From a virus, in IMG/VR virus record IMGVR_UViG_3300037193_000788, positions 1-40,284 of that record: a stretch of 40,284 nt of DNA, one strand, 5' to 3'. This document shows, piece after piece, positions 1,508 to 36,509 of this stretch. How positions within the stretch are numbered: position 1 is the first letter of the stretch; every line of letters starts with the position of its first letter. Both the position numbers and the translations under genes were made by a program. A model generated the notes under the pieces. That model did no database searches, had not been told where the DNA came from, and was given only the letters and a program-made list of their open reading frames with translations.

Positions 1508-3368
1508 TCAGCATCCCAGGCGCTGCCAACTGCGGATTGCTAACGAGTCCCGGCGCCGCCAATTGCGGATCAAGCATCATGTTCACCAGCCTGTTTCTGA
1601 TTGCCTCGTTCGGCCCGGAGTAAGCCAAGCGCCCAACCTGACCAAGCACCCCACTTACACCATACTTATCAGCAAGTCGCGACAGCCCATCGCCAAGAGC
1701 TGAATTCAGGATGTTGTCCGTAGCAAGATTTTGGAACGTGTTAGAACCTATTGATCTTCCAAGGCCAAGGTTATCCTGCCGAAGCAGATCATCATGAATG
1801 GCCCTTAGGGCGCTAAGTTGATCGTCGGTTACGGATTTGGCTGCATTAAAACCAGGTGCAGACCGAAGTCTTTCTAGTGACTCTATGGAATTTTTTACTT
1901 TTGCGAGAGTAATATTTCCTCTCGCATCTGTTAATCTCAGCCCCTGCAGAGTTTCCATTGAGTTAATTGGCTTGCTCATAGCCGCATAAGTTGCATTTGC
2001 CTCTGCATAAGTTTGGCTCAACTTCTCCATCACTGTTGTAAGTTTATTTTGCAGATTACCCAGTGATTCTGCCTCCCCTCCCCGTCCCTCTCTGACGGCC
2101 TTGCTAATCTTGTCGTCAATGATGGTCTTCATGTCTTGCAACCCGCGAAGGCTTCCATTAAAAGAGGGCTTTTCGAGCCTATCGCGCGCCAAACGTTGCG
2201 CTTCCTTCCTCGCTTCGAGGATGGTAGGGGCTTTGTTCAATTGGGTGATTTGCCCTTTTAGCCATGGTGTTAATGGTTGCTGATTAGCCTGGTCTAGCGC
2301 CTCGTCATAAAGTTGCTTTGCGACAGTTTTACGGTCAGCTTTGAAAAACTCCAGCTTGCTAGGATCGCCAGCAATCTCATCAAACAGTGCGGTACGCGCA
2401 GCAGCATTTTGCGCCTCGCGCTCAATAAACGCGTTCGGTCGGATGTCTCGCGTGCCCCGCTGAAGCGTCGCCAAGCCTGCGTTTCCGGTTGCTTCGGCTA
2501 ACGTCGGCGTGGAGCCAGGAACGATTTGTGCCGCATTGATCGATGTTGGCCCCCCCCTAGCAAACTGACGAATCACATTCTGTGCAATTTCTTCCTGCCC
2601 CTTTTGGGTAAATGGCTGCACGAAAGAACGCATGGCGTTTCCGAGATATTCACTACCCCTAGCAGCGCCAGCGATAGCAGGAGGCAAGGCAGCTCCTACC
2701 ATTGCGCCGGTCAAAGCGCTATCAGGGCTCACAAGCGCGGTTGACGCGCCGCCAGTAATCGCGCCGCCGGCAGAGCGCAGGCCAATATTCCCAAGCTTTG
2801 CCAGTTTAGACGCATCATCCGCGAGATTGATGCCAGTGCGAAAGCCGCCAGATGAGATTGCGTTGCCGAGTGCCTGCACTTTCGGCGCAGCGGACAGCGC
2901 CTTCACTCCAGCGCCAAGGACGCCGCCAACCGGCCAAGTGGCAGCTACGTTTCCGCCGATACGCCCAACGTTGAAGGCGGTCGAATCATTGTGCTCGTCA
3001 TTAAAGGCTTTCAGCGACTCATTACGAGCGTCGTTCCAGCGTTTGATGGCGGACGGCTGCCGGCCTGTCACGAGTTCGCTTACCGCGGGCGATGTGACCT
3101 TGTCTCGCACGTATTCGCCACCTTCGACGGCTGCATTAATCAGCGTGTTGCCGATATCCGCGAACCCGCTTGCGATGCCTCCAGCAGTATTGCCAAGGCC
3201 AGACGCAACACTGTTGATAAATGACTCATCATTTTTCTTGATTGCCATCTGCTTATCGCCAACAAGTGCAGAGTGAGTCGCTTTCTTCGGCGGCTGAATG
3301 TCATCAAACATCCCGCCGCCACCAGTCGGCGCGCCTCGTTGCGGCGCCAGATCGTCAAACATTCCCAT
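1434..3368 (-). CDS. Ejection-type internal virion protein, 644 aa
   Basis: The start ATG shares a base with the upstream stop (TAATG), so translation is coupled. The N-terminus carries two copies of an MFDD(L/I) motif (MGMFDDLAPQ and GGMFDDIQPP), often seen at the start of podovirus internal proteins. A small-residue-rich hydrophobic stretch (about 130-230) with many Gly/Ala follows, then a long helical, Lys/Glu-rich part (about 250-540). This fits a protein packaged in the head and ejected ahead of the DNA to form a channel in the envelope, like the three ejection proteins of P22 or T7. It is the third of three consecutive large genes of this kind. No enzymatic motif is recognised. Confidence 0.55.
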   Translation of the reverse strand: MGMFDDLAPQRGAPTGGGGMFDDIQPPKKATHSALVGDKQMAIKKNDESFINSVASGLGNTAGGIASGFADIGNTLINAAVEGGEYVRDKVTSPAVSELVTGRQPSAIKRWNDARNESLKAFNDEHNDSTAFNVGRIGGNVAATWPVGGVLGAGVKALSAAPKVQALGNAISSGGFRTGINLADDASKLAKLGNIGLRSAGGAITGGASTALVSPDSALTGAMVGAALPPAIAGAARGSEYLGNAMRSFVQPFTQKGQEEIAQNVIRQFARGGPTSINAAQIVPGSTPTLAEATGNAGLATLQRGTRDIRPNAFIEREAQNAAARTALFDEIAGDPSKLEFFKADRKTVAKQLYDEALDQANQQPLTPWLKGQITQLNKAPTILEARKEAQRLARDRLEKPSFNGSLRGLQDMKTIIDDKISKAVREGRGGEAESLGNLQNKLTTVMEKLSQTYAEANATYAAMSKPINSMETLQGLRLTDARGNITLAKVKNSIESLERLRSAPGFNAAKSVTDDQLSALRAIHDDLLRQDNLGLGRSIGSNTFQNLATDNILNSALGDGLSRLADKYGVSGVLGQVGRLAYSGPNEAIRNRLVNMMLDPQLAAPGLVSNPQLAAPGMLTRILSDSRVQQPLYLAAPVVSTSR

Positions 3369-4906
3369 TATCGAATCCCATGATTTGTTATGCCGGCAGC
3401 CTCAAGACGGCGGATGATTTCAGCTTTTGCGGACGGGTTACGCATGATGGCGTTTTGAGCGTCGCGAACGGCTGCTTGCTGGTTTGCATACCCGAACTCC
3501 TTCCACGTCTTCTGCGCTGTCTGCGGTGCCGACTTGGCACCTTGTGTGCGGCCAATTTCCCGCTCAAGCGCGGCACGGTTCGCCGGGTTGGTTTCGCGGG
3601 ACAATTCCTCTTGCAGAATTGCGAGGCGTTCAGAATCGCGTGCTGGCTGCGTACCAGCGACACTTTCATTTATCTGCGTCCATGAGCCGTTAGGATTTGC
3701 CAAAGGCGCGGTAGGCGGCTTCCCGCCGTCTTTGCCGCCACCTTTCATGCGCTGGAATGCCTCGTCAACGCCGACCAAGTGCCCTTTTTCAGTCAAATAG
3801 CGCTCCCGGAACGCAAGCTGCTCTTCTGCGTTCCTCAACTGCTCAGCGAACTGCTCGCGGATGTTGCGGTTGACATTGCCGTCTTTATCAACACCAGGCA
3901 GACTCTGCAAATAGAGCGCAATGTCACGGTCGGAAGTCGTGCCAGAGCCCGGAACACGTTGCATTGGCGCTAGCCTGGCTTGGATCGACTCCATTTCGCG
4001 CTTTTCTGGGTCAAACGTCCACAAGTTAGCTCTATCAAGCAAGCCTCCTGTTGCTTGCTCGCGGTTCAACTCCCCGAATCGCTCAAGGTCGCGCATAGCA
4101 GCCCGACCTTGGGTGACTTGTGCACGCAGATCGTCCAAGCGCTTGTTGTCTTGCTCATATACACGAGCGCGCATCTGGTCTTGCTCTTTTGGAGAACGAA
4201 GGCTAGCCCAAGGAGCAAGCTGGTCAACTGCGGGCGCAACTTCGGCGCTAGCAGGAACTCCTGCAGGCATGCCGAGGGCCGCTGCTGTCGGCGATGCGGG
4301 GGCAGCGTTTGACGACTGAGCAGCAAATGGACGAGCCGGCGCGACCTCGCCACCACGCGGATTGAATGTTTGTGCTGGTGTGTATTCATTGCCAGGAATG
4401 TACTTCAAGTTATCCGGCACGCCAGCATCAAGCCATTTCGTCCCGCTGCGATTGTCCTGCACGAAATAACCAGGTTTGCCAGTAGTTGGATGAATACCGA
4501 TCTTTGGCTCCAGGCCGAAATCCGCAGTGCTCGTCATGCTCTTAAGCGCGGATTCCGGGTCGATCTCGAACATATCTGCCGACGTTGGCTTGTAAGTCGG
4601 ATCGCTCTCCATCTTTGCGCGAAGGCGCCCGATAGCTGCCTGTTGGGCAGTCTCGGTGTCAATTTTGCGCTGGATTTGGCTCATCTGCGCCTTCCGATGA
4701 TCCGCCATCATCTTGCGCTCTTCCGCCTCCTGCTGCGCCCTCAATGCGCCCTGATACCCCTGCAGCCCGCCTCCCAGCATGGAACCAAGCACCTGCCCGG
4801 TACTCACCGGCACGCGAGACGGCCCGGACATTTGCAGCCCTTGCGCGGCAGCAGCTAGCAGGCCCATCGTTTCCGGATTGGCGAAGGCATTTTCAAACAG
4901 ACCCAT
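3368..4906 (-). CDS. Ejection-type or coiled-coil structural protein, 512 aa
   Basis: I start this at ATG 4906 because AAAGGG lies at the right distance (AAAGGGATGAAA then ATG); a TTG at 4921 and an ATG at 4910 are also in frame but have no usable ribosome-binding site. The protein begins MGLFENAFANPETMGLLAAA, a short amphipathic and hydrophobic stretch. An Arg/Gln/Glu-rich coiled-coil region (about 60-100), a Pro/Ala-rich linker and further helices follow. Position between two other ejection-type proteins and the lack of enzyme motifs suggest an internal virion protein. It is a confident gene with a tentative role. Confidence 0.55.
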   Translation of the reverse strand: MGLFENAFANPETMGLLAAAAQGLQMSGPSRVPVSTGQVLGSMLGGGLQGYQGALRAQQEAEERKMMADHRKAQMSQIQRKIDTETAQQAAIGRLRAKMESDPTYKPTSADMFEIDPESALKSMTSTADFGLEPKIGIHPTTGKPGYFVQDNRSGTKWLDAGVPDNLKYIPGNEYTPAQTFNPRGGEVAPARPFAAQSSNAAPASPTAAALGMPAGVPASAEVAPAVDQLAPWASLRSPKEQDQMRARVYEQDNKRLDDLRAQVTQGRAAMRDLERFGELNREQATGGLLDRANLWTFDPEKREMESIQARLAPMQRVPGSGTTSDRDIALYLQSLPGVDKDGNVNRNIREQFAEQLRNAEEQLAFRERYLTEKGHLVGVDEAFQRMKGGGKDGGKPPTAPLANPNGSWTQINESVAGTQPARDSERLAILQEELSRETNPANRAALEREIGRTQGAKSAPQTAQKTWKEFGYANQQAAVRDAQNAIMRNPSAKAEIIRRLEAAGITNHGIR

Positions 4907-11078: not shown

Positions 11079-11179
11079 TAAAATACTCCTTGCGAGGCTA
11101 GGGTAGCTCCCGAAAATCGGTCTCCGTGCCGACTGCCGCGCAACCACACACGGAGCGAATCAATTAGCGGAGATTGATC

Positions 11180-13648: not shown

Positions 13649-14518
13649 TCACGCCCCTAGGTAGGTTGTGCGGTGCTCGTGAATCGATATTGCGCCGCGT
13701 GTTTGCGCCGCGTTAGATCGATTCACAAGGTCAAAGAATGGGTTCAGGCCGCCAGAGAATGCCGTCAGCGTCTCGTTGTACACCACCCCTAGGGCGGTCA
13801 TCGACGAACTTGAGGTTGCAGCCAGGGAGCCCTCTCTGATCGCGGCATTAACGCGGAATCCTTCAAACAGGCCCGTCGTTGTATTGACTACCATTGCCAT
13901 ATAAACCGGCAGTGCTTTGTTCTCATTGGCCTGCCACGTGAAAGAGCCGTTCGGCACATCAGCATACGACCCGTCCGCCAGCTTGATCTGAAACTTGCGC
14001 GGTTGAGATGCGCCTGCTTCGTCATAGTTAAGCCAGCGAACATAGAAATACTTACGCGTGCCATCAGCTAAGGCAATATCCAGCCCCCAACCGTACCAAC
14101 GTGGGCGGTCAGTCGACAAATTCACGAACTCGATGGATGTAAGGAACTCGACCAGATAGCGGCCATCGCCATGCCAGTTCCCCATGCGTTTGATGCCCAT
14201 CACTTCCGCTGACGCCACGGCAGGCGTGCGAATTAGTATGCGCGGCTCGCCTCTAGAGATAATTCGTGATGCTGTGCCGCGAGAGATGGCAGACTCGACA
14301 GGGCTGGAACGTGGCGTGAATAGCTGCAACCACCCGCTCGCGTCCTCTTCAAACGTGTCGTGGCATAGCACAACAGAATTTGGTTTTCGCACCAAACCAG
14401 TTATATCACCGAGCATTCCTTTGGGAAGTCCAAATGGAACGTGCACGTTAGCAGCTTGCCCCGTTGAGAGCTGCTTTGTCGGGTATCCACTTGTGCTATC
14501 TATTTGCGCATCAGGCAT
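13649..14518 (-). CDS. Beta-sandwich virion protein, 289 aa
   Basis: The start follows AGGAGCGAATC and overlaps the preceding gene by 8 bp. After a short N-terminal arm (residues 1-50), the rest looks like a beta sandwich with aromatic strands (RPRWYGWGLDIAL, RKYFYVRWLNYD, YADVPNGSFTWQANENKAL). The pattern recalls carbohydrate-binding-like domains found in phage virion proteins. With the gene before it, it may form surface decorations. No catalytic residues can be named. Confidence 0.5.
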   Translation of the reverse strand: MPDAQIDSTSGYPTKQLSTGQAANVHVPFGLPKGMLGDITGLVRKPNSVVLCHDTFEEDASGWLQLFTPRSSPVESAISRGTASRIISRGEPRILIRTPAVASAEVMGIKRMGNWHGDGRYLVEFLTSIEFVNLSTDRPRWYGWGLDIALADGTRKYFYVRWLNYDEAGASQPRKFQIKLADGSYADVPNGSFTWQANENKALPVYMAMVVNTTTGLFEGFRVNAAIREGSLAATSSSSMTALGVVYNETLTAFSGGLNPFFDLVNRSNAAQTRGAISIHEHRTTYLGA

Positions 14519-15845
14519 GATTCGCTCCTAAATCATTTTTCAGTGCCTCAAAAATCATCGAGACCACTTTAGACCAAGAATCCTTTTGTCTAAACAGACG
14601 AACGGAGTCGTACCAAGGCAACTTTTCGCCCTCTACGCCGTATCTCCAGTGCGGATGCGAGGAAATCATGGCGTAAGTTTTCGTTCCAACCGCTCCGGCC
14701 ACATGCACGGCGGTTTGCTGGACGGTTACAACGGCATCCACGGCGGCAAAAAGTGCCGCCTGCTCATGCAGATCAAGACCGGTAGATTCATCATTGATCT
14801 TGTGCAGACCCGCTTTTGCGCGCTCTGACTCGATCATTGGGTTCGTGTCGCTGTATTGACCGGATACGCACGTAAATGCGTCCATGATCGGGCGCAGTTC
14901 TTCCAGGCGGATCGATCTATCCTCAACCCGCGTCACCTTGGCACCGCCCATCCACGTCAAGGCGATGTACGGCCCCGGCCCCAACTTCTCCAGTTCAGCG
15001 CGATAAAAGGCGACTCGCTCAGGAGACGGCGACAGATACGCCCCTTCGTTGAACTTATCGAAAAGCACGTTCAGTGAGCCAATCGGAATCTTGGCGTCGT
15101 AGTCGCCCGGCGTCTCTTCGGTTACTACTGTCCATTCAGGCCACGTTTGCTTGATCAGCGCAGCCATCTTGGTATTCACTTCAATCGTGACGCGTTTTGC
15201 GTTCGTCACATACGGCAGCATTGAGGCGAACATGACCTCATCGCCCACGCCTTGCTCGCCGTGGATGTACAGATGATCGACCGGCTTGCCATCCCACAGC
15301 GGGGCATTGATCGACTTTCGAGAATCCCAAGATGCAAGCTTCTGCCGGTATTCGTACAGCTTCCAGCCCTCTTTCCAGCGCTTCATGGTCAAGGTCGCCA
15401 GCGCCTTTTGCCAATGCGCCTCAACGTTGCTGGGATCAAGCTTCAATGCCCTATCACACCACTCGATTGCCTTATCAGGCATGGCGCGGTCAGCGTACAG
15501 GCCGGCGAGATTGCTGCACACCTCGACAGTTTCGCCACCCACTTCAATGGCACGCATCCACGCGGATTTGGCGAAATCGTACTGATTCTCTTTGCGGAAA
15601 CCGACACCCAAATTGCACCAGGCCATAGCGTGCTTCGGGTTGTTCTGCAGGAGATTACTTAAAAGGTTGATTGCAAGCCCGTTGTATTCCTTCCTGAGAT
15701 ACAGATCAGCCAGAAGGAACAGGATGGGCTCTTCGAAATTCTTTCGATTCAGCAGACGGTTATAGATATCTTCCGCCTCATCGAATCTACCCTGCTTGTG
15801 CAAGGCCAGCGCTTCGTTCAGAACTTCTTGATATACGTCGTTCAT
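14511..15845 (-). CDS. TPR-repeat glycosyltransferase, 444 aa
   Basis: Residues 1-170 are tetratricopeptide repeats (for example HAMAWCNLGVGFRKENQYD and VEVCSNLAGLYADRAMPDKA). Residues 190-440 resemble the GT-B fold used by heptosyltransferase and OGT-like enzymes: HGEQGVGDEVMFASMLP at 195-211, IALTWMGG, then a donor-binding end with LHEQAALFAAVDAVVTVQQTAVHVAGAVG. It probably transfers a sugar to a phage or host protein. A terminator hairpin lies directly before the ATG, and no ribosome-binding site is visible between them, so its expression is odd. A second, unrelated glycosyltransferase is encoded at 24.4 kb. Confidence 0.82.
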   Translation of the reverse strand: MNDVYQEVLNEALALHKQGRFDEAEDIYNRLLNRKNFEEPILFLLADLYLRKEYNGLAINLLSNLLQNNPKHAMAWCNLGVGFRKENQYDFAKSAWMRAIEVGGETVEVCSNLAGLYADRAMPDKAIEWCDRALKLDPSNVEAHWQKALATLTMKRWKEGWKLYEYRQKLASWDSRKSINAPLWDGKPVDHLYIHGEQGVGDEVMFASMLPYVTNAKRVTIEVNTKMAALIKQTWPEWTVVTEETPGDYDAKIPIGSLNVLFDKFNEGAYLSPSPERVAFYRAELEKLGPGPYIALTWMGGAKVTRVEDRSIRLEELRPIMDAFTCVSGQYSDTNPMIESERAKAGLHKINDESTGLDLHEQAALFAAVDAVVTVQQTAVHVAGAVGTKTYAMISSHPHWRYGVEGEKLPWYDSVRLFRQKDSWSKVVSMIFEALKNDLGANHA

Positions 15846-16380: not shown

Positions 16381-18309
16381 TCACGGGGCTGGTGCGTACC
16401 CACTTAGTACAATGGTTGCGAAGTCGATGCTGTTAAACACCGATTTCTTCACACCGAAGATCATGCCGGCCTCGATACCGAGCTGATTGCCGAAGTCGAA
16501 CCATTCATGTTCGCCATGGGTCGCTAATCCATGACCGCCAAATAAAAAAGCCGCTCATCGCGGCTTTAATTGGCTGCTGCATATTGCTATGCAGATCAGA
16601 CTATATCTTCACCCTCTTAAGAGGGGCTGTGCGCTTCCGCCCGCTTGGGCGTACTCCCTTTCGGGATAGTCGTTACACCTTTTGTTTATGAGGGCAAATC
16701 CCGCCATTTCTGTGCTTCCCATGATTGCAGTTCATGCAAAGCACTTGAAAACCTGCCGGATAATGGTTGTCTTTCAACCATTTGTATAACTTATGGCCTC
16801 CAGTTGAACCGATTAATTTTCTATGCTCATTTCCATCGTTATTGATATGGTCTAGAGCAAGAAACATCGGCTCGGTTTCGCCACAACATGCGCAGCGATA
16901 CCCGCCGTAAGCCACGATTGCCTCGTCTTGCAAGCGATAATAGTAAGCAAGAGCATTTTTCCGACGCTTTCCCGGGTTGTTTTTGGCCCATTCAATAGCC
17001 TTATCAACAACCAACTCTTTGTTCTTAGCGTAATAGTTGCGCCTGTTTTCTATTACTCGCTGCTTAGATTCTGCTGACCATTTCTTTAGGTACTCAGACT
17101 TGCACGCCTTGCAAGTATGCCGTCTTGTTCCAGTTACTTTGTTCAGCAATTCATAAGCATCAAGAGGAAGCAATTTTTTACAGGATTTGCATTCCTTCAT
17201 TGTAGTCTCCGTGGCACTGATTTCCTAAATCATACGCCATTTTGACTACGCAAACAACTTGGCTCGGTATTGTCCTTTACAGGAGTTCCACCGAATTCAC
17301 ACAGTTTCTAATGCACCGTTACCGATGCATGGAGCCTGTTCTCGTTAAGCTCCTCGTTCCAGCTCATAGCGTTCTCGCCGCCCCCCTGACCGTGCGCAAT
17401 CACGGCAGACTGAGCGCCGCAAAGCACGCCACGACGGAAGTCCGACGCAGAGCCAGAGTTCGGCGTACCCGCGATGGTCGGCAGGTAGTTCCACTCGTGG
17501 ACAATGCACTGGTTGTAGACGAACTCAGCGCCGGTCATGAGCGGGTTATCGGAAATCTTCCCGCCCTGGAGTTGTGCCTTCTGGATGTCGAAGAAGTTAC
17601 CAGCGGTGGATGCATCGCGGCGAAGCTGGTAAATCTGATACGGGTGCAGGAACACCACGTAGTAAGACTTCCCGTCCACTTTGACCGGACGAATGCGCGG
17701 ATGACCGGAAGTGGAAGGCTGTTTGGCCTGAGCCACAGCACGATCAAGGTCGGTCAACTGAATAGCGTGCGTAGTCGTGGCCGACAGCGATGCCTCGGTA
17801 GTGTGCCCACCGCCGCACCGAATACGTCCAGTTGTAGGCGCAATGGTCGCGTTATTGCCTGTATAGCGTGTATCAGATTCACCAGTGTTACCAGTGAGCT
17901 GATTAGCCACGCAGGTTTCAAGACGCTCTGCCCACCAGTCAGTAAGGCCGGCGCGTGCTTCTTCTCGAACGCTGAACGGAACGCGCTGCTCGGACATTTT
18001 TCCAGCAGACCTAACCGCATGGCGAAGTTGATCAATGAAGGTGTTGTCGGCGTACGTGGACAGCGCCTCCTCGTTGCCTTCCAGGGTGTTATCGCCCTGA
18101 ATACCGGCGCCGGTCAGCAGCGGGCGCAAACCAACAGTGATCCGGTCGCCGGCGTCTTTGTTGAGGTCAGTCTTCAGTTGAATTAGGCTCGAATCAGATT
18201 TGCCGGTGAACTTACCGACGAACGTCGAGCCGATGGTGTCGTGAAACAGCTTCTTAGCCCATACTTTGACGGCTAATGGGTGATTCACGCCATATGACGT
18301 ATTTGCCAT
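16381..18309 (-). CDS. Major capsid protein, N4 gp56 family, split by a group I intron: complement(join(16381..16501,17348..18309))
   Basis: Exon 1 (962 nt) encodes 320 residues with family hallmarks: GIQGDNTLEGNEEALSTYAD, QLRHAVRSAGKMSEQRVPFS, LTDWWAERLE and QLTGNTGE. Without splicing it would stop 13 codons into the intron. Exon 2 (121 nt) supplies the missing C-terminus, FDFGNQLGIEAG through DFATIVLSGYAPAP. Joining CT with G rebuilds a Leu codon and gives ...SWNEEL-FDFGNQLG..., 360 aa in frame, which matches how this family ends. Start: AAGGAG CTATC ATG. The 342-nt leader upstream is highly structured. This is the shell subunit of the head. Confidence 0.9.
16540..16567 (-). terminator. Terminator-like hairpin inside the intron
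   Basis: Minus strand: AAAGCCGC-GATGA-GCGGCTTT followed by TTTTATTT, located between P9 and the 3' splice site. It has the same T-tract as the intergenic terminators of this genome, yet exon 2 of the capsid gene lies beyond it. Confidence 0.65.
16673..17200 (-). CDS. Intron-encoded HNH homing endonuclease, 175 aa
   Basis: The protein has paired cysteines at 4/7, 30/33, 103/106 and 155/158, and an HNH core LALDHINNDGNEHRK (114-128) followed by CMNCNHGKHRNGG (155-167). This is the zinc-stabilised HNH type seen in phage introns and in free-standing homing genes. The start ATG is preceded by GGAG, which is also part of the intron's P7 strand, so folding and translation compete. The enzyme would cut intronless capsid genes near the exon junction and so spread the intron. 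Confidence 0.92.
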   Translation of the reverse strand: MKECKSCKKLLPLDAYELLNKVTGTRRHTCKACKSEYLKKWSAESKQRVIENRRNYYAKNKELVVDKAIEWAKNNPGKRRKNALAYYYRLQDEAIVAYGGYRCACCGETEPMFLALDHINNDGNEHRKLIGSTGGHKLYKWLKDNHYPAGFQVLCMNCNHGKHRNGGICPHKQKV

Positions 18310-30538: not shown

Positions 30539-30781
30539 TCACCTGAGCCTGTGAACGGTAGTTCCAGTGATGCCCGACGGCAGCTCCTGCTTCGGCTCAA
30601 GAAAACCGCCGACCTTCTTGCCGGTCACCTTCGCATGCTCAACTTCCACCTTTGCGCTATTCACCATGACCTGCGCCAAGTCAGAAATACATGCCGCCTT
30701 TTCCACGCTAAGAGTTCCGTTCTTTACGCCATCCAGAGCATCAAAAAGCACCGCCCGCAGGTCTTCAATCGTCTTGCTCAT
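30539..30781 (-). CDS. Conserved-type early phage protein, 80 aa
   Basis: The protein opens MSKTIEDLRAVLFDALDGVK and continues with EKAACISDLAQVMVNSAKVEVEHAKVTGKK. This helical pattern is frequent in betaproteobacterial and other phages next to HTH regulators. Its function is not known to me. It overlaps both neighbours by four bases. Confidence 0.62.
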   Translation of the reverse strand: MSKTIEDLRAVLFDALDGVKNGTLSVEKAACISDLAQVMVNSAKVEVEHAKVTGKKVGGFLEPKQELPSGITGTTVHRLR

Positions 30782-31407
30782 TTTTCCGTCCTCCTATTGA
30801 TTTGCCGGTTCAATGCCCCGCGCAGTTGAATCAGCTCTGCAAGCTCTTTCGGCAGCCTGTGGACCGTGTTCCGGCGCATCAGCTCAGCGCGGGTGATGCA
30901 TTCCAAGTTCTCGATATCGATGTTTTTCTTGTCGCCGTCCTTGAACACCACGGCGCAGCCAGCCGGAACCGGGCCGTTGTGTTGCTCCCAAAGTAGAACG
31001 TGAACCATGACCCAATCCACTTTTTTATTCCTGGTATCAGAAACTTTTCGATACACGTAGCCGTCGCTGTCAATGCGCTCTGAGCCGATTGGTTTCCACG
31101 TCTGCGGGAAATTCCCGGGCTTAAATCTGGTTTCCTTACCGCCAATGTCCAAGCCCTTCATGCCCTTGTTCCAGGTTGCGCATCCCTTCTGAAAGCGATT
31201 TGCAACGCTCTTTGGCCCGGTCAACCGCTCCACGGCCTGCGCTCTAATCAACTCCGGAGACTTCTTCAAGCCCATCGAAACGGCCTTGTTGTAGATGCAC
31301 TTAATAGACCGGTCGAACATCGCGCAAAGCTCTGCGGTCAGAGTTGTCGCGTAAATTTCGCGCAGATTCGCCTCTTCTTCCTGTTTCCAGTAACGGCGTT
31401 TTTTCAC
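30778..31407 (-). CDS. HNH endonuclease-like protein with N-terminal Myb/SANT-like helices, 209 aa
   Basis: Residues 1-50 (RRYWKQEEEANLREIYATTLTAELCAMF) resemble a Myb/SANT-type DNA-binding unit. The centre has FKPGNFPQTWKPIG and YVYRKVSD. Residues 130-180 (VMVHVLLWEQHNGPVPAGCAVVFKDGDKKNIDIENLECI) match the HNH_3 core, in which His would be His135 and Asn that of NIDIENLE. It lies inside the operon in the same direction with four-base overlaps, unlike the two homing genes of this genome, so it is probably a resident phage gene. Confidence 0.75.
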   Translation of the reverse strand: MKKRRYWKQEEEANLREIYATTLTAELCAMFDRSIKCIYNKAVSMGLKKSPELIRAQAVERLTGPKSVANRFQKGCATWNKGMKGLDIGGKETRFKPGNFPQTWKPIGSERIDSDGYVYRKVSDTRNKKVDWVMVHVLLWEQHNGPVPAGCAVVFKDGDKKNIDIENLECITRAELMRRNTVHRLPKELAELIQLRGALNRQINRRTEK

Positions 31408-31628: not shown

Positions 31629-32398
31629 TCGGCAGTGTTCTTTCCATACGCTGCGACCTTCGCGGCAATTTCTTGCTTTCGCTTGGCCTCGGCCTCACGT
31701 TGTGCCTCAAGCTCTGCCGCACGGCGTTCTGCAGCAGCAGTCCATGCGTCCTTCATCTTTGCCATTTCCGCTTTCAGCCTTGTCAGGCCCTCAGGGCACA
31801 TCTCGGTTATGGCCTTGCCGTCCTTGCCAATGTGATGCGGAAGTAGCGCATGCGCAGTTGGGGCAGGAAGTAGACCAGCGACAGTTGCCTTCTCAATCGC
31901 TGCCTCACGCCTCCCCACATCCCACCCAAGCGAGACATTCCAGGCAGCAGGCTTGCCAGCAATGCGGGCTGCATTCACAAGCCGGTTGTAAGCGTCCTTG
32001 AATGCAACCCGGGCGCCCACTTTCTCACCAAGCTGCAGCACGGGCGAGCAAATCGAAAACGCTTCTGCGGCTTCAGCAGTCCAAACAACGGTCTCAGCTT
32101 CGTCGCGGCTCGTAATGGCGATTGCCCATGCCTCGTCTGCACCAGGGCGACCGTCGCCCCCAGTCATGCCCTCAATTTGCTCAATCAGGTCGGCTGGTTT
32201 CGGAGTGAAGCGCCCGCGCTCCTTATGCAGGCAATGAGCGTTCAACGCAGCACGAACAACATCTAGTGGATAAGGAGCCATTGCGGCAAAAAACATACTC
32301 TTCGCCCCTCCGCTAATGATCTTGTTAGCGCCAACGCCGATCAGGTCGTATGCGTCGTCCAGCAATCTGGCGAACTCGTCAAAATCTTCGTTACGCAT
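31625..32398 (-). CDS. Probable replication accessory (helicase-loader-like) protein, 257 aa
   Basis: The N-terminal 90 residues (FARLLDDAYDLIGVGANKIISG, then FFAAMAPYPLDVVRAALNAHC, GRFTPKPADLIEQIEG) form a compact helical domain commonly found downstream of phage replication initiators, as with loader or P-type proteins. A long Ala/Glu/Lys coiled coil (215-250) closes it. It overlaps the initiator gene by eight bases. No ATP-binding motif is visible, so it is not a DnaC-type ATPase. Confidence 0.55.
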   Translation of the reverse strand: MRNEDFDEFARLLDDAYDLIGVGANKIISGGAKSMFFAAMAPYPLDVVRAALNAHCLHKERGRFTPKPADLIEQIEGMTGGDGRPGADEAWAIAITSRDEAETVVWTAEAAEAFSICSPVLQLGEKVGARVAFKDAYNRLVNAARIAGKPAAWNVSLGWDVGRREAAIEKATVAGLLPAPTAHALLPHHIGKDGKAITEMCPEGLTRLKAEMAKMKDAWTAAAERRAAELEAQREAEAKRKQEIAAKVAAYGKNTAE

Positions 32399-33191
32399 CT
32401 ATCGTCCTTCCATCGTCATTGCCGAACAGTCGTCGCTTCGCTTCTTCGTTCGCTGCCTTCTGGGCCGCTGCCAGATCCAACTGCGGCTTTGCAGGGGATG
32501 CACGTGCTTGTGGCGTATTCAGCTTTGCCCAATCGTTGCGAATGGCCCCCATGAACGCCTCATCCCAGCATGCATAGGTGTAACCCTTTGCTTTGCAAGC
32601 GCCAACGAAATTCTCGAAATGCCGCTCCAAGTGCGAATAGCCTTTTTCGACAGCCCAAGAACGGACACGCTCAGAAATGCAAAACCCGTCTGGCAATGGC
32701 GTCTTTGCAGGGGCTCGCGATTTTTTCGGCGCAGCCGCAGCGTCCGAGCCGGGCGCGATTTCCTCATTCAGCAATCCGGAATCAGAAGAGAGGGATTCAG
32801 GAATCAGACAATCAGGCGGATTCCCACCATGCTGATCTGGTGCTTGCACCGTGTTTGCACCGTGCTCGCATGGTGCTGGTATGGTGCTCGCCTTTTCGTC
32901 CTTGTGTGGACTCTGATGCTTACTGAATGCGAGCACCTGGATATAGCGCACACCAGAATGTTCATATCGCAGCAAAAAACCCGCTTGTTGAAGCTCATTC
33001 AGCGCAGCATCGACATCAACACTATCCGCAGGGAAGATAGCCATCTTGATCTTCTTTGGGCGGTCCTCAAGCCGTCCCGCTCGATCTGCAAGAGTCCACA
33101 GCCCAATGAACAAAAGACGCGTAGAAAACGGGAGCTCCACTAACTCTTCGTTGGTAAAAAATCCCGGTTTAATGTTTCTTGCGCGGGCCAT
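32391..33191 (-). CDS. Phage replication initiator-like protein, 266 aa
   Basis: I start at ATG 33191, overlapping the upstream stop (TAATG). The N-terminus MARARNIKPGFFTNEELVEL, then LPFSTRLLFIGLWTLADRAGRLEDRPKKIKM and ALNELQQAGFLLRYE, is the winged-helix start of replisome-organiser or O-like phage proteins. The C-terminal part (FENFVGACKAKGYTYACWDEAFMGAIRNDW) matches the usual primosome-interacting tail. It should bind the phage origin, possibly within its own gene. The middle (about 100-160) is a low-complexity linker. Confidence 0.78.
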   Translation of the reverse strand: MARARNIKPGFFTNEELVELPFSTRLLFIGLWTLADRAGRLEDRPKKIKMAIFPADSVDVDAALNELQQAGFLLRYEHSGVRYIQVLAFSKHQSPHKDEKASTIPAPCEHGANTVQAPDQHGGNPPDCLIPESLSSDSGLLNEEIAPGSDAAAAPKKSRAPAKTPLPDGFCISERVRSWAVEKGYSHLERHFENFVGACKAKGYTYACWDEAFMGAIRNDWAKLNTPQARASPAKPQLDLAAAQKAANEEAKRRLFGNDDGRTIDA

Positions 33192-33751
33192 TACACTGCT
33201 TCCTTCACAACCTTCAACTCTCCGCTCTCGATGAGCGAAACCAATAGAACAGCCAAATTCTCGTAGTCGTGGCAAACGGATGGAGTCGCCACAAGCAATG
33301 TCATCGTCGAGCCTGTCAACTTCCCGGAACGAACCAGCGCCGCAACCGTCAAACAGATATGCTTGTACTCGAATTGATTGCGCTCTTCCTTCGTCATCAT
33401 CCCGCCCTGGTCGAGGCGGTTGTGGCATCCGGGAAAATCTGGCGTAGAGCAGCAGAGCGCCATAGAAGTGGCGTCCGATGCTTTCTGTCCTTTGGCCTTC
33501 GAAAACCTGAGTTGATTGCTATGTGCCGCTTGGGTGTACCATCTCCATCTGCCGCAGCAGACGCAATTCAACGTGCGTACAGCAGCTAGGTACTCAGGCG
33601 AGCGGAATACGGGCTTCTCGTCCAGAATCACGCGCTGACGCAGTTTCTTTTCTCCGGACTTGAGCGCGGCTTTGTGGGATGTGCGGCGTAGAGGCGCCTT
33701 GCGCGCCAATGGCTTGCCGGGGGTTTTGAAGGTTGAGTTCCAGGTGTTCAT
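33191..33751 (-). CDS. YbcO-like HNH nuclease of the nin type, 186 aa
   Basis: ATG 33751 has GGAGG at the right distance and follows the ninB stop. Cys63/65/66, QAAHSNQLRFSKAKGQKASD (74-93) and ALCCSTPDFPGCHNRLDQG (98-116) match the Cys/His arrangement of DUF1364/YbcO proteins, a zinc-bound HNH nuclease family coded beside ninB in lambdoid phages. The N-terminus is very basic. A role in recombination or Holliday-junction processing is likely. Confidence 0.68.
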   Translation of the reverse strand: MNTWNSTFKTPGKPLARKAPLRRTSHKAALKSGEKKLRQRVILDEKPVFRSPEYLAAVRTLNCVCCGRWRWYTQAAHSNQLRFSKAKGQKASDATSMALCCSTPDFPGCHNRLDQGGMMTKEERNQFEYKHICLTVAALVRSGKLTGSTMTLLVATPSVCHDYENLAVLLVSLIESGELKVVKEAV

Positions 33752-35996: not shown

Positions 35997-36053
35997 CACA
36001 TATGTGTTCGGCAGGGAAACACCAACGTGATTGCTAGCAAACACCAACGTGAT
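35971..36053. promoter_or_regulatory. Four tandem CI/Cro operators
   Basis: Related 14-bp sites occur at 35971-35984 (ATCACGTACGTGTT), 35995-36008 (AACACATATGTGTT, a perfect palindrome), 36018-36031 and 36040-36053 (both AACACCAACGTGAT, within an exact 18-bp direct repeat). Centre spacings are 24, 23 and 22 bp, about two helical turns. The two rightmost sites lie upstream of cI. Confidence 0.82.
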
Positions 36054-36077
36054 TGCGTTTTAAATTACATTCGTGAT

Positions 36078-36509
36078 ATGGATACTCTGGCTAAGCGCCT
36101 TGCGTGGGCGCGAGAAAAAAAGGGGATGACTCAGGGGCAACTGGCAAAGGCTGTCAAAGTCTCCCAATCAACAATAGGGAATCTTGAGGCAGGGATTCGA
36201 CTGACAAGCAGAAAGGTGGCTCTCATAGCAGATGTGCTTGAGGTTGATGCACTATGGCTTGCGGAGGGCGGTGCACGTTCACCAGAAAAGAGCGATCACA
36301 CACAACATGATGCCCCTGCCAAGCAAGTTGCTGTGAATGATACAGTTCACAACGTCGCGTTAGAAAGATTTCAACGCATAGCCTATATATATTGGCAATC
36401 AGACGAAGCTGGACAACGGCGGATTCTTCGGATGGCCGACAATGTCCAAAAGAGTTCTAAAAAGCATACTAGCGGCGAGCGACAAGAGGTTCTGGGTAAA
36501 CTTGTCTAA
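36078..36509 (+). CDS. cI: CI-like repressor without an autoprotease domain, 143 aa
   Basis: I start at ATG 36078 (MDTLAKRLAWAREKKGMTQG); an earlier GTG (36027) lies inside an operator. The N-terminal 70 residues are an Xre helix-turn-helix (MTQGQLAKAVKVSQSTIGNLEAG, then ALWLAEGG). The C-terminal 70 residues are helical (VALERFQRIAYIYWQSDEAGQRRILRMAD) and lack the S24 Ser/Lys peptidase motifs of lambda CI. It is divergent from cro across the operators. No strong promoter is seen, in keeping with activation by CI itself. Confidence 0.8.
   Translation: MDTLAKRLAWAREKKGMTQGQLAKAVKVSQSTIGNLEAGIRLTSRKVALIADVLEVDALWLAEGGARSPEKSDHTQHDAPAKQVAVNDTVHNVALERFQRIAYIYWQSDEAGQRRILRMADNVQKSSKKHTSGERQEVLGKLV

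Follow-up and report, generated by a model that had tools for sequence, protein, structure and literature searches.

Introns in the major capsid genes of phages have been described before. The major capsid gene of mycobacteriophage LittleE carries an intron of about 820 bp, whose splicing was proven by RT-PCR and protein N-terminal sequencing (PMC3706429), and a capsid intron of lactococcal phage Tuc2009 is cited in the same paper (PMC3706429); a capsid intron as such is therefore already known. The introns of the T-even phages, including T4 td (IA2, I-TevI), reside in genes of nucleotide metabolism, and those in td and nrdD carry GIY-YIG enzymes (PMC2988022). A survey of the Bastillevirinae from 2025 places most split phage genes in the class of nucleotide- and DNA-metabolism genes, and asks why introns occupy only genes of this class (PMC11878797). 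Papers on introns in N4-gp56-type capsid genes were not found in the open literature, which does not by itself prove that there are none.

Here, we describe an insertion in the window, i.e. the whole IMG/VR virus record IMGVR_UViG_3300037193_000788 (40,284 bases), which is almost certainly a mobile group I intron of type IA2, located in the conserved EEL/FDY motif near the 3' end of a major capsid gene. It resembles the LittleE intron in its host gene, in the U preceding the 5' cut, in the 3' G and in an endonuclease ORF inside the intron, whereas in LittleE the intron type is only inferred, the ORF is LAGLIDADG-like and lies on the opposite strand, the site is near the start of the mature protein, and the capsid belongs to another family (PMC3706429). 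With the T-even introns such as T4 td it has in common that the endonuclease is encoded inside the intron, but ORF position, enzyme type and host gene differ (PMC2988022). The Bastillevirinae introns are likewise of the IA type and contain endonuclease ORFs that interrupt the core, so that Rfam fails to detect them; unlike in the window, their hosts are exclusively nucleotide- and DNA-metabolism genes (PMC11878797). Podoviridae sp. ctDrO704 (MW202512.1, locus L002) shares the capsid family, the HNH family and a related intron core, but is interrupted near codon 30. In the GenBank record of this locus (2278-3975), the capsid is truncated and given an alternative start, the endonuclease is called 'icea protein', and the intron is unannotated, which exemplifies that automatic annotation truncates intron-split capsids. 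The window intron is thus one more case on a short list, and the wider pattern described below matters more.

The left half of the window encodes, on the minus strand, terminase subunits, a P22-like portal, the capsid and other virion proteins. A repressor-like gene (36027-36509) and a replication initiator gene (32391-33428) make a temperate lifestyle possible, although the window ORFs scanned did not include an integrase. The ORF 17308-18309(-) encodes a 333-aa Phage_capsid_3 / N4-gp56 major capsid protein (PF13252, 191 bits with a cut-off of 23, E 3.6e-56; TIGR04387, 100 bits with a cut-off of 60; phrog_334, E 1.3e-69). Its family match ends at residue 320-322 and, as the sequence-only reading had noticed, the final 12 codons (NENRLHASVTVH) form a nonsense tail without any match, while the C-terminus of the family is encoded separately at 16381-16501(-). 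Joining 18309-17348 with 16501-16381 results in a 360-aa protein, whose junction shows neither a gap nor an extra residue when aligned with the intact capsids of Paracoccus phage KLEP18-1, Microcystis phage Mae-JY35 and Rhizobium phage RHph_Y1_10. Against an HMM (length 354) of 82 intact capsids drawn from IMG/VR and GenBank, the spliced protein reaches 493.3 bits and covers positions 1-352, compared to 424.9 bits and an end at position 316 for the unspliced ORF, so that the predicted exact restoration of the frame holds. The residues of exon 2 are present at the junction in the 82 homologues, which mostly read VEELFDY with the junction between EEL and FDY; these intact genes represent the empty sites. 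A direct search of viral contigs with the exon 1 protein revealed two loci only. The alignment search returned the best 80 capsids, which are uninterrupted by ranking; because the ranking favours such genes, they give no measure of how often these capsids are interrupted. The features of the locus are listed in Table 1.

Table 1 Features of the interrupted capsid gene and its intron in the window.
Feature	Position	Strand	Evidence
Exon 1, major capsid gene (codons 1-320 and two bases of codon 321)	17348..18309	-	PF13252, TIGR04387, phrog_334
Exon 2, last base of codon 321 to stop TGA	16381..16501	-	39 residues FDFGNQLGIEAGMIFGVKKSVFNSIDFATIVLSGYAPAP align with intact capsids L003, L005, L006
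Putative group I intron, 846 nt, IA2 type	16502..17347	-	held-out covariance models; RF00028 E 1.2e-8; fold z -5.68; covariation
P1: exon GGAGCU (17353-17348) / internal guide GGCUCC (17336-17331), U.G at the cut	17331..17353	-	sequence; MFE fold
P10: GAAC / exon 2 GUUC	17341-17338 / 16501-16498	-	sequence
5' core half: P3 5' strand (17304-17298), P4, P5, P6 5' strand	17257..17317	-	model R2
HNH/EndoVII-like endonuclease ORF, 175 aa, in P6 loop	16673..17200	-	phrog_2255, phrog_1035
3' core half: P6 3' strand, P7 (16671-16666 / 16604-16599), P7.1, P7.2, P3 3' strand (16633-16627), P8, P9 (16594-16577)	16571..16680	-	model R1
P9.1 with nested terminator-like hairpin AAAGCCGC-GATGA-GCGGCTTT and TTTATTT (16567-16547 and tail)	16537..16574	-	
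P9.2 and intron 3' end ...GAACATGAATG, terminal G	16502..16535	-	P9.2 covaries; canonical 3' end

To place the splice sites, all frame-keeping U/...G junctions were scored. The top junctions were GAGGAGCT/TAACG ... AACATGAATG/GTTCGAC and its neighbour one nucleotide downstream (CTT/TTC), which encodes the same protein and has an equal protein score. A 6-bp P1 with U.G at the cut is formed at the chosen junction only and not at its neighbour. The chosen junction is favoured because of this U.G rule and because its UAA intron start is shared with L009b and L051. The cut point that had been proposed from the letters is therefore the preferred one, although the protein alone does not separate it from its neighbour. 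Both hallmarks of group I splice sites are present, i.e. U.G in P1 at the 5' exon end and an intron-terminal G (...AAUG/GUUC). Since a 6-bp P1 occurs in 5.6% of shuffles, P1 by itself is weak evidence. The predicted ligated-exon sequence is GAGGAGCUGUUCGAC.

The pairings P1, P10, P3 (CUGUGUG/CGCACAG, 7 bp), P7 (GACUAU/AUAGUC) and P9 (CUGCAUA/UAUGCAG), which the sequence-only reading had placed, are all present; the IA2 subgroup was assigned by anatomy and not by subgroup models. The T4 td intron has the same overall core layout as the window intron, with P7.1/P7.2, and likewise starts with UAA. A default Rfam scan of the window contained no group I match, and a permissive scan of a 1-kb stretch detected RF00028 with 40.5 bits (E 1.2e-8; gathering score 50) in an alignment that places ORF sequence where the true 5' core half belongs. 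The window remains below gathering because the endonuclease ORF in P6 splits the core, whereas homologous capsid introns whose core is not interrupted by an ORF exceed this score (L009 intron 1, 91.4 bits; L230 intron 2, 72.7 bits; L013, 66.9 bits; L015, 60.2 bits). Default Rfam scans thus miss ORF-split introns.

For the covariation analysis, 15 ORF-deleted introns were aligned and tested against the window's own structure, including the pseudoknot. Among these introns, 85% of the cells were paired, compared to 68% after shuffling and 38-45% after sliding by one column; two-sided changes were found in 43 of 59 pairs (shuffled mean 29) and the covariation score was 0.44 (shuffled 0.17). P3, P4, P6, P7, P7.1, P7.2, P9 and P9.2 are strongly conserved and covarying (cells paired: P3 98%, P4 100%, P6 98%, P7 93%), and P7.1/P7.2, located between P7 and P3 (columns 163-197 of alignment A3), are 91-95% paired with two-sided changes. 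P1 and P2 align poorly, because both follow the exon. Since this structure was taken from one of the aligned sequences, the window was left out of two additional models. The held-out model R1 (P7-P9) matches 16571-16680(-) with 122.6 bits (E 2.1e-29) and R2 (P3-P6) matches 17257-17317(-) with 60.7 bits (E 7.3e-14), each match being the sole significant one in 40 kb; in 20 intact-capsid loci R1 had no match. The covariance search, which had been set beforehand as the test for a group I intron in the capsid gene, has therefore found one in 16502-17347. When the ORF is deleted, the window intron folds alone into P1-P9.2 (z -5.68) except for P7, which is missing from the unaided fold because it is pseudoknotted with P3. 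The whole intron structure is far beyond chance.

From the anatomy of the element we infer splicing, endonuclease cleavage and homing as follows. The transcribed RNA would fold, and guanosine would attack at GAGGAGCU/UAACG, the 5' splice site. The exon released in this way would next attack behind the terminal G (AACAUGAAUG/GUUCGAC), and the ligated mRNA would give rise to the 360-aa capsid. The HNH/EndoVII-like protein encoded in the P6 loop would cut intron-less capsid alleles at or near the site, and repair would copy the intron.

The P9.1 pairs GCC/GGC are kept in 15/15 introns, and in the window they enclose an 8-bp hairpin, which is followed by a U-tract. Such a nested hairpin with U-tract is present in 2 of 247 introns, namely in the window and, in similar form, in L014 (2776-2959; intron at codon 82), with 0.05 expected in shuffles; this P9.1-nested terminator-like hairpin of the window and one relative is new here. 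Being located between the ribozyme core and exon 2, it could lower the transcription of exon 2. If it were a working intrinsic terminator, exon 2 would be reached only under antitermination late in infection, and the intron transcript that serves the endonuclease would stop inside the intron. We consider such a switch unlikely: the canonical form of hairpin and U-tract, its frequency above that in shuffles, and the repressor-like gene of a genome that is maybe temperate point towards it, but there is no strict-consensus promoter within 16381-17500, an antiterminator gene was not identified, the two cases possibly go back to one inherited insertion, and within a peripheral loop such a hairpin may have no effect. 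That the hairpin in P9.1 is a working terminator in both the window and L014, so that self-splicing, an endonuclease gene and control by termination over the transcription of the last capsid exon would be united in one RNA element, is quite improbable. A promoter candidate for the endonuclease ORF, TTGTTT-17-TATGAT (17251-17223; a similar pair is found in L009), was rejected by the consensus scan.

The same hairpin ahead of exon 2 would also agree with an intron that is present but defective, in which case the capsid would be truncated and probably non-functional, or the record would represent a degraded provirus. However, every core helix pairs in the window and its relatives keep compensatory changes, the reading frames of exon 2 and of the endonuclease are uninterrupted and conserved, and both exons fit the capsid family well, which makes this very improbable. 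A reading without any intron, in which the two parts would be united by an assembly error, by an intein, or by frameshifting or readthrough, found no support and has hardly any probability left. The insert of 846 nt contains a full ribozyme core that covaries and is bordered by canonical splice sites, insertions related to it recur in numerous independent contigs, and an intein read in frame is excluded by stops in the capsid frame of the insert.

We therefore return to the mobile group I intron and its endonuclease. The sequence-only reading had not mentioned the endonuclease ORF inside the intron, which matches phrog_2255 (HNH endonuclease, E 1.8e-16) and phrog_1035 (endonuclease VII, E 4.6e-14). 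Pfam and NCBIfam gave no match, a PDB sequence search returned nothing useful, and a match to a Kaiso zinc finger was weak and not meaningful. Using the endonuclease as query, 76 loci were found in viral contigs, several of which contain a capsid gene of this family that is interrupted at or close to the place of the window intron; in a bacterial genome collection, the single match was a metagenome-assembled contig (L164). Related endonucleases occupy different peripheral loops, i.e. before P3 in L013 and L015, and P6 in the window, L009 and L051. The window contains a second HNH endonuclease gene, 30778-31407(-), which belongs to another family (phrog_1891, E 1.2e-61).

Within the N4-gp56 / Phage_capsid_3 family, introns were found at several positions. 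One cluster spans 20 bases (codons 318-324) in the EELFDY motif and includes the window, L009 (codon 321, one base earlier), L051 (codon 318), L011 (codon 324) and, less exactly placed, L010; the cluster introns of L009, L051, L011 and L010 carry HNH proteins close to that of the window. Further introns are located at codons of about 8 (L013 and L015, and from the same reading L164 and L273), 30 (L002 and L009 intron 1), 82 (L014, L016 and L310), 103 (L204, L264 and L278), 133 (L373) and 262 (L043 and L230), and an extra site probably exists near codon 15-17 in L248. The sites of L009 intron 2 were set by hand, and junction scoring gave no exact position for L010 and L012. L009 and L230 have two introns each, and the capsid gene of L373 (1755-3545) harbors three short introns near codons 8, 133 and 321, all without an endonuclease ORF. 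As judged from these sequences, the capsid family has been invaded at about 8 sites or tight clusters, with up to 3 introns per gene, which is new here. Two loci with a SU10-type capsid (L293 and L344) seemingly contain three or more introns each.

In a tree of the endonucleases, the enzymes from codon 8, codon 82 and codon 103 each form one clade. The 318-324 group does not do so and requires 2 changes, and the two codon-262 enzymes lie apart. Mapping the site labels on the tree takes 9 changes (minimum 8; shuffled mean 19.7). We conclude that the endonuclease clades largely track the insertion site, which is new here and fits the homing prediction that the enzymes stay with their target.

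To estimate which genes host this type of intron, IMG/VR was sampled with two exact core patterns, and all counts refer to the matches listed. Among these, 147 usable 3' exons were assigned by Pfam to DNA polymerase A (22), P22 coat (10), Mu gpT (10), Phage_capsid_3 (8), SU10 capsid (4), ribonucleotide reductase (4) and terminase (4), among others. The 3' exon belonged to one of four capsid families (P22 coat, Mu gpT, SU10 and Phage_capsid_3) in 21 of 102 and 31 of 116 unique introns among the matches listed, shares which are rough because the core patterns do not sample group I introns at random. Split copies were directly visible with intact capsid queries for Mu gpT (break at about residue 92) and SU10 (about 108, 248 and others). 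With P22 coat as query, most matches begin at residue 21-35 directly after the core, and the upstream exon was found in L303 only, so that the P22-coat share rests mainly on 3' exons. As a rough estimate that is new here, genes of shell proteins are a common intron target among the matches listed. The expectation that introns are commoner in polymerase, reductase and terminase genes, which the sequence-only reading had stated, agrees with the literature but does not carry over to these IMG/VR samples, where capsid genes are at least as frequent as DNA polymerase A among the matches listed. These samples suggest, among the matches listed, that the premise of the Bastillevirinae survey (PMC11878797) fails outside the phage groups studied there.

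Three minor observations concern neighbouring material. In L403 (1399-2908, MW202674.1), a P22-type coat gene is annotated as two CDS about 250 nt apart, and a core of the window's intron type was not found in this interruption. In the window, Rfam detects an int-alpA RNA at 11091-11156(+) with 40.2 bits (gathering 35.8), which is antisense to and overlaps two minus-strand ORFs, has no adjoining integrase and may be spurious. Within the virion gene block, 14511-15845(-) encodes a TPR-repeat protein with a weak glycosyltransferase-9 match, and a TPR protein is found at the corresponding place in MW202512.1.
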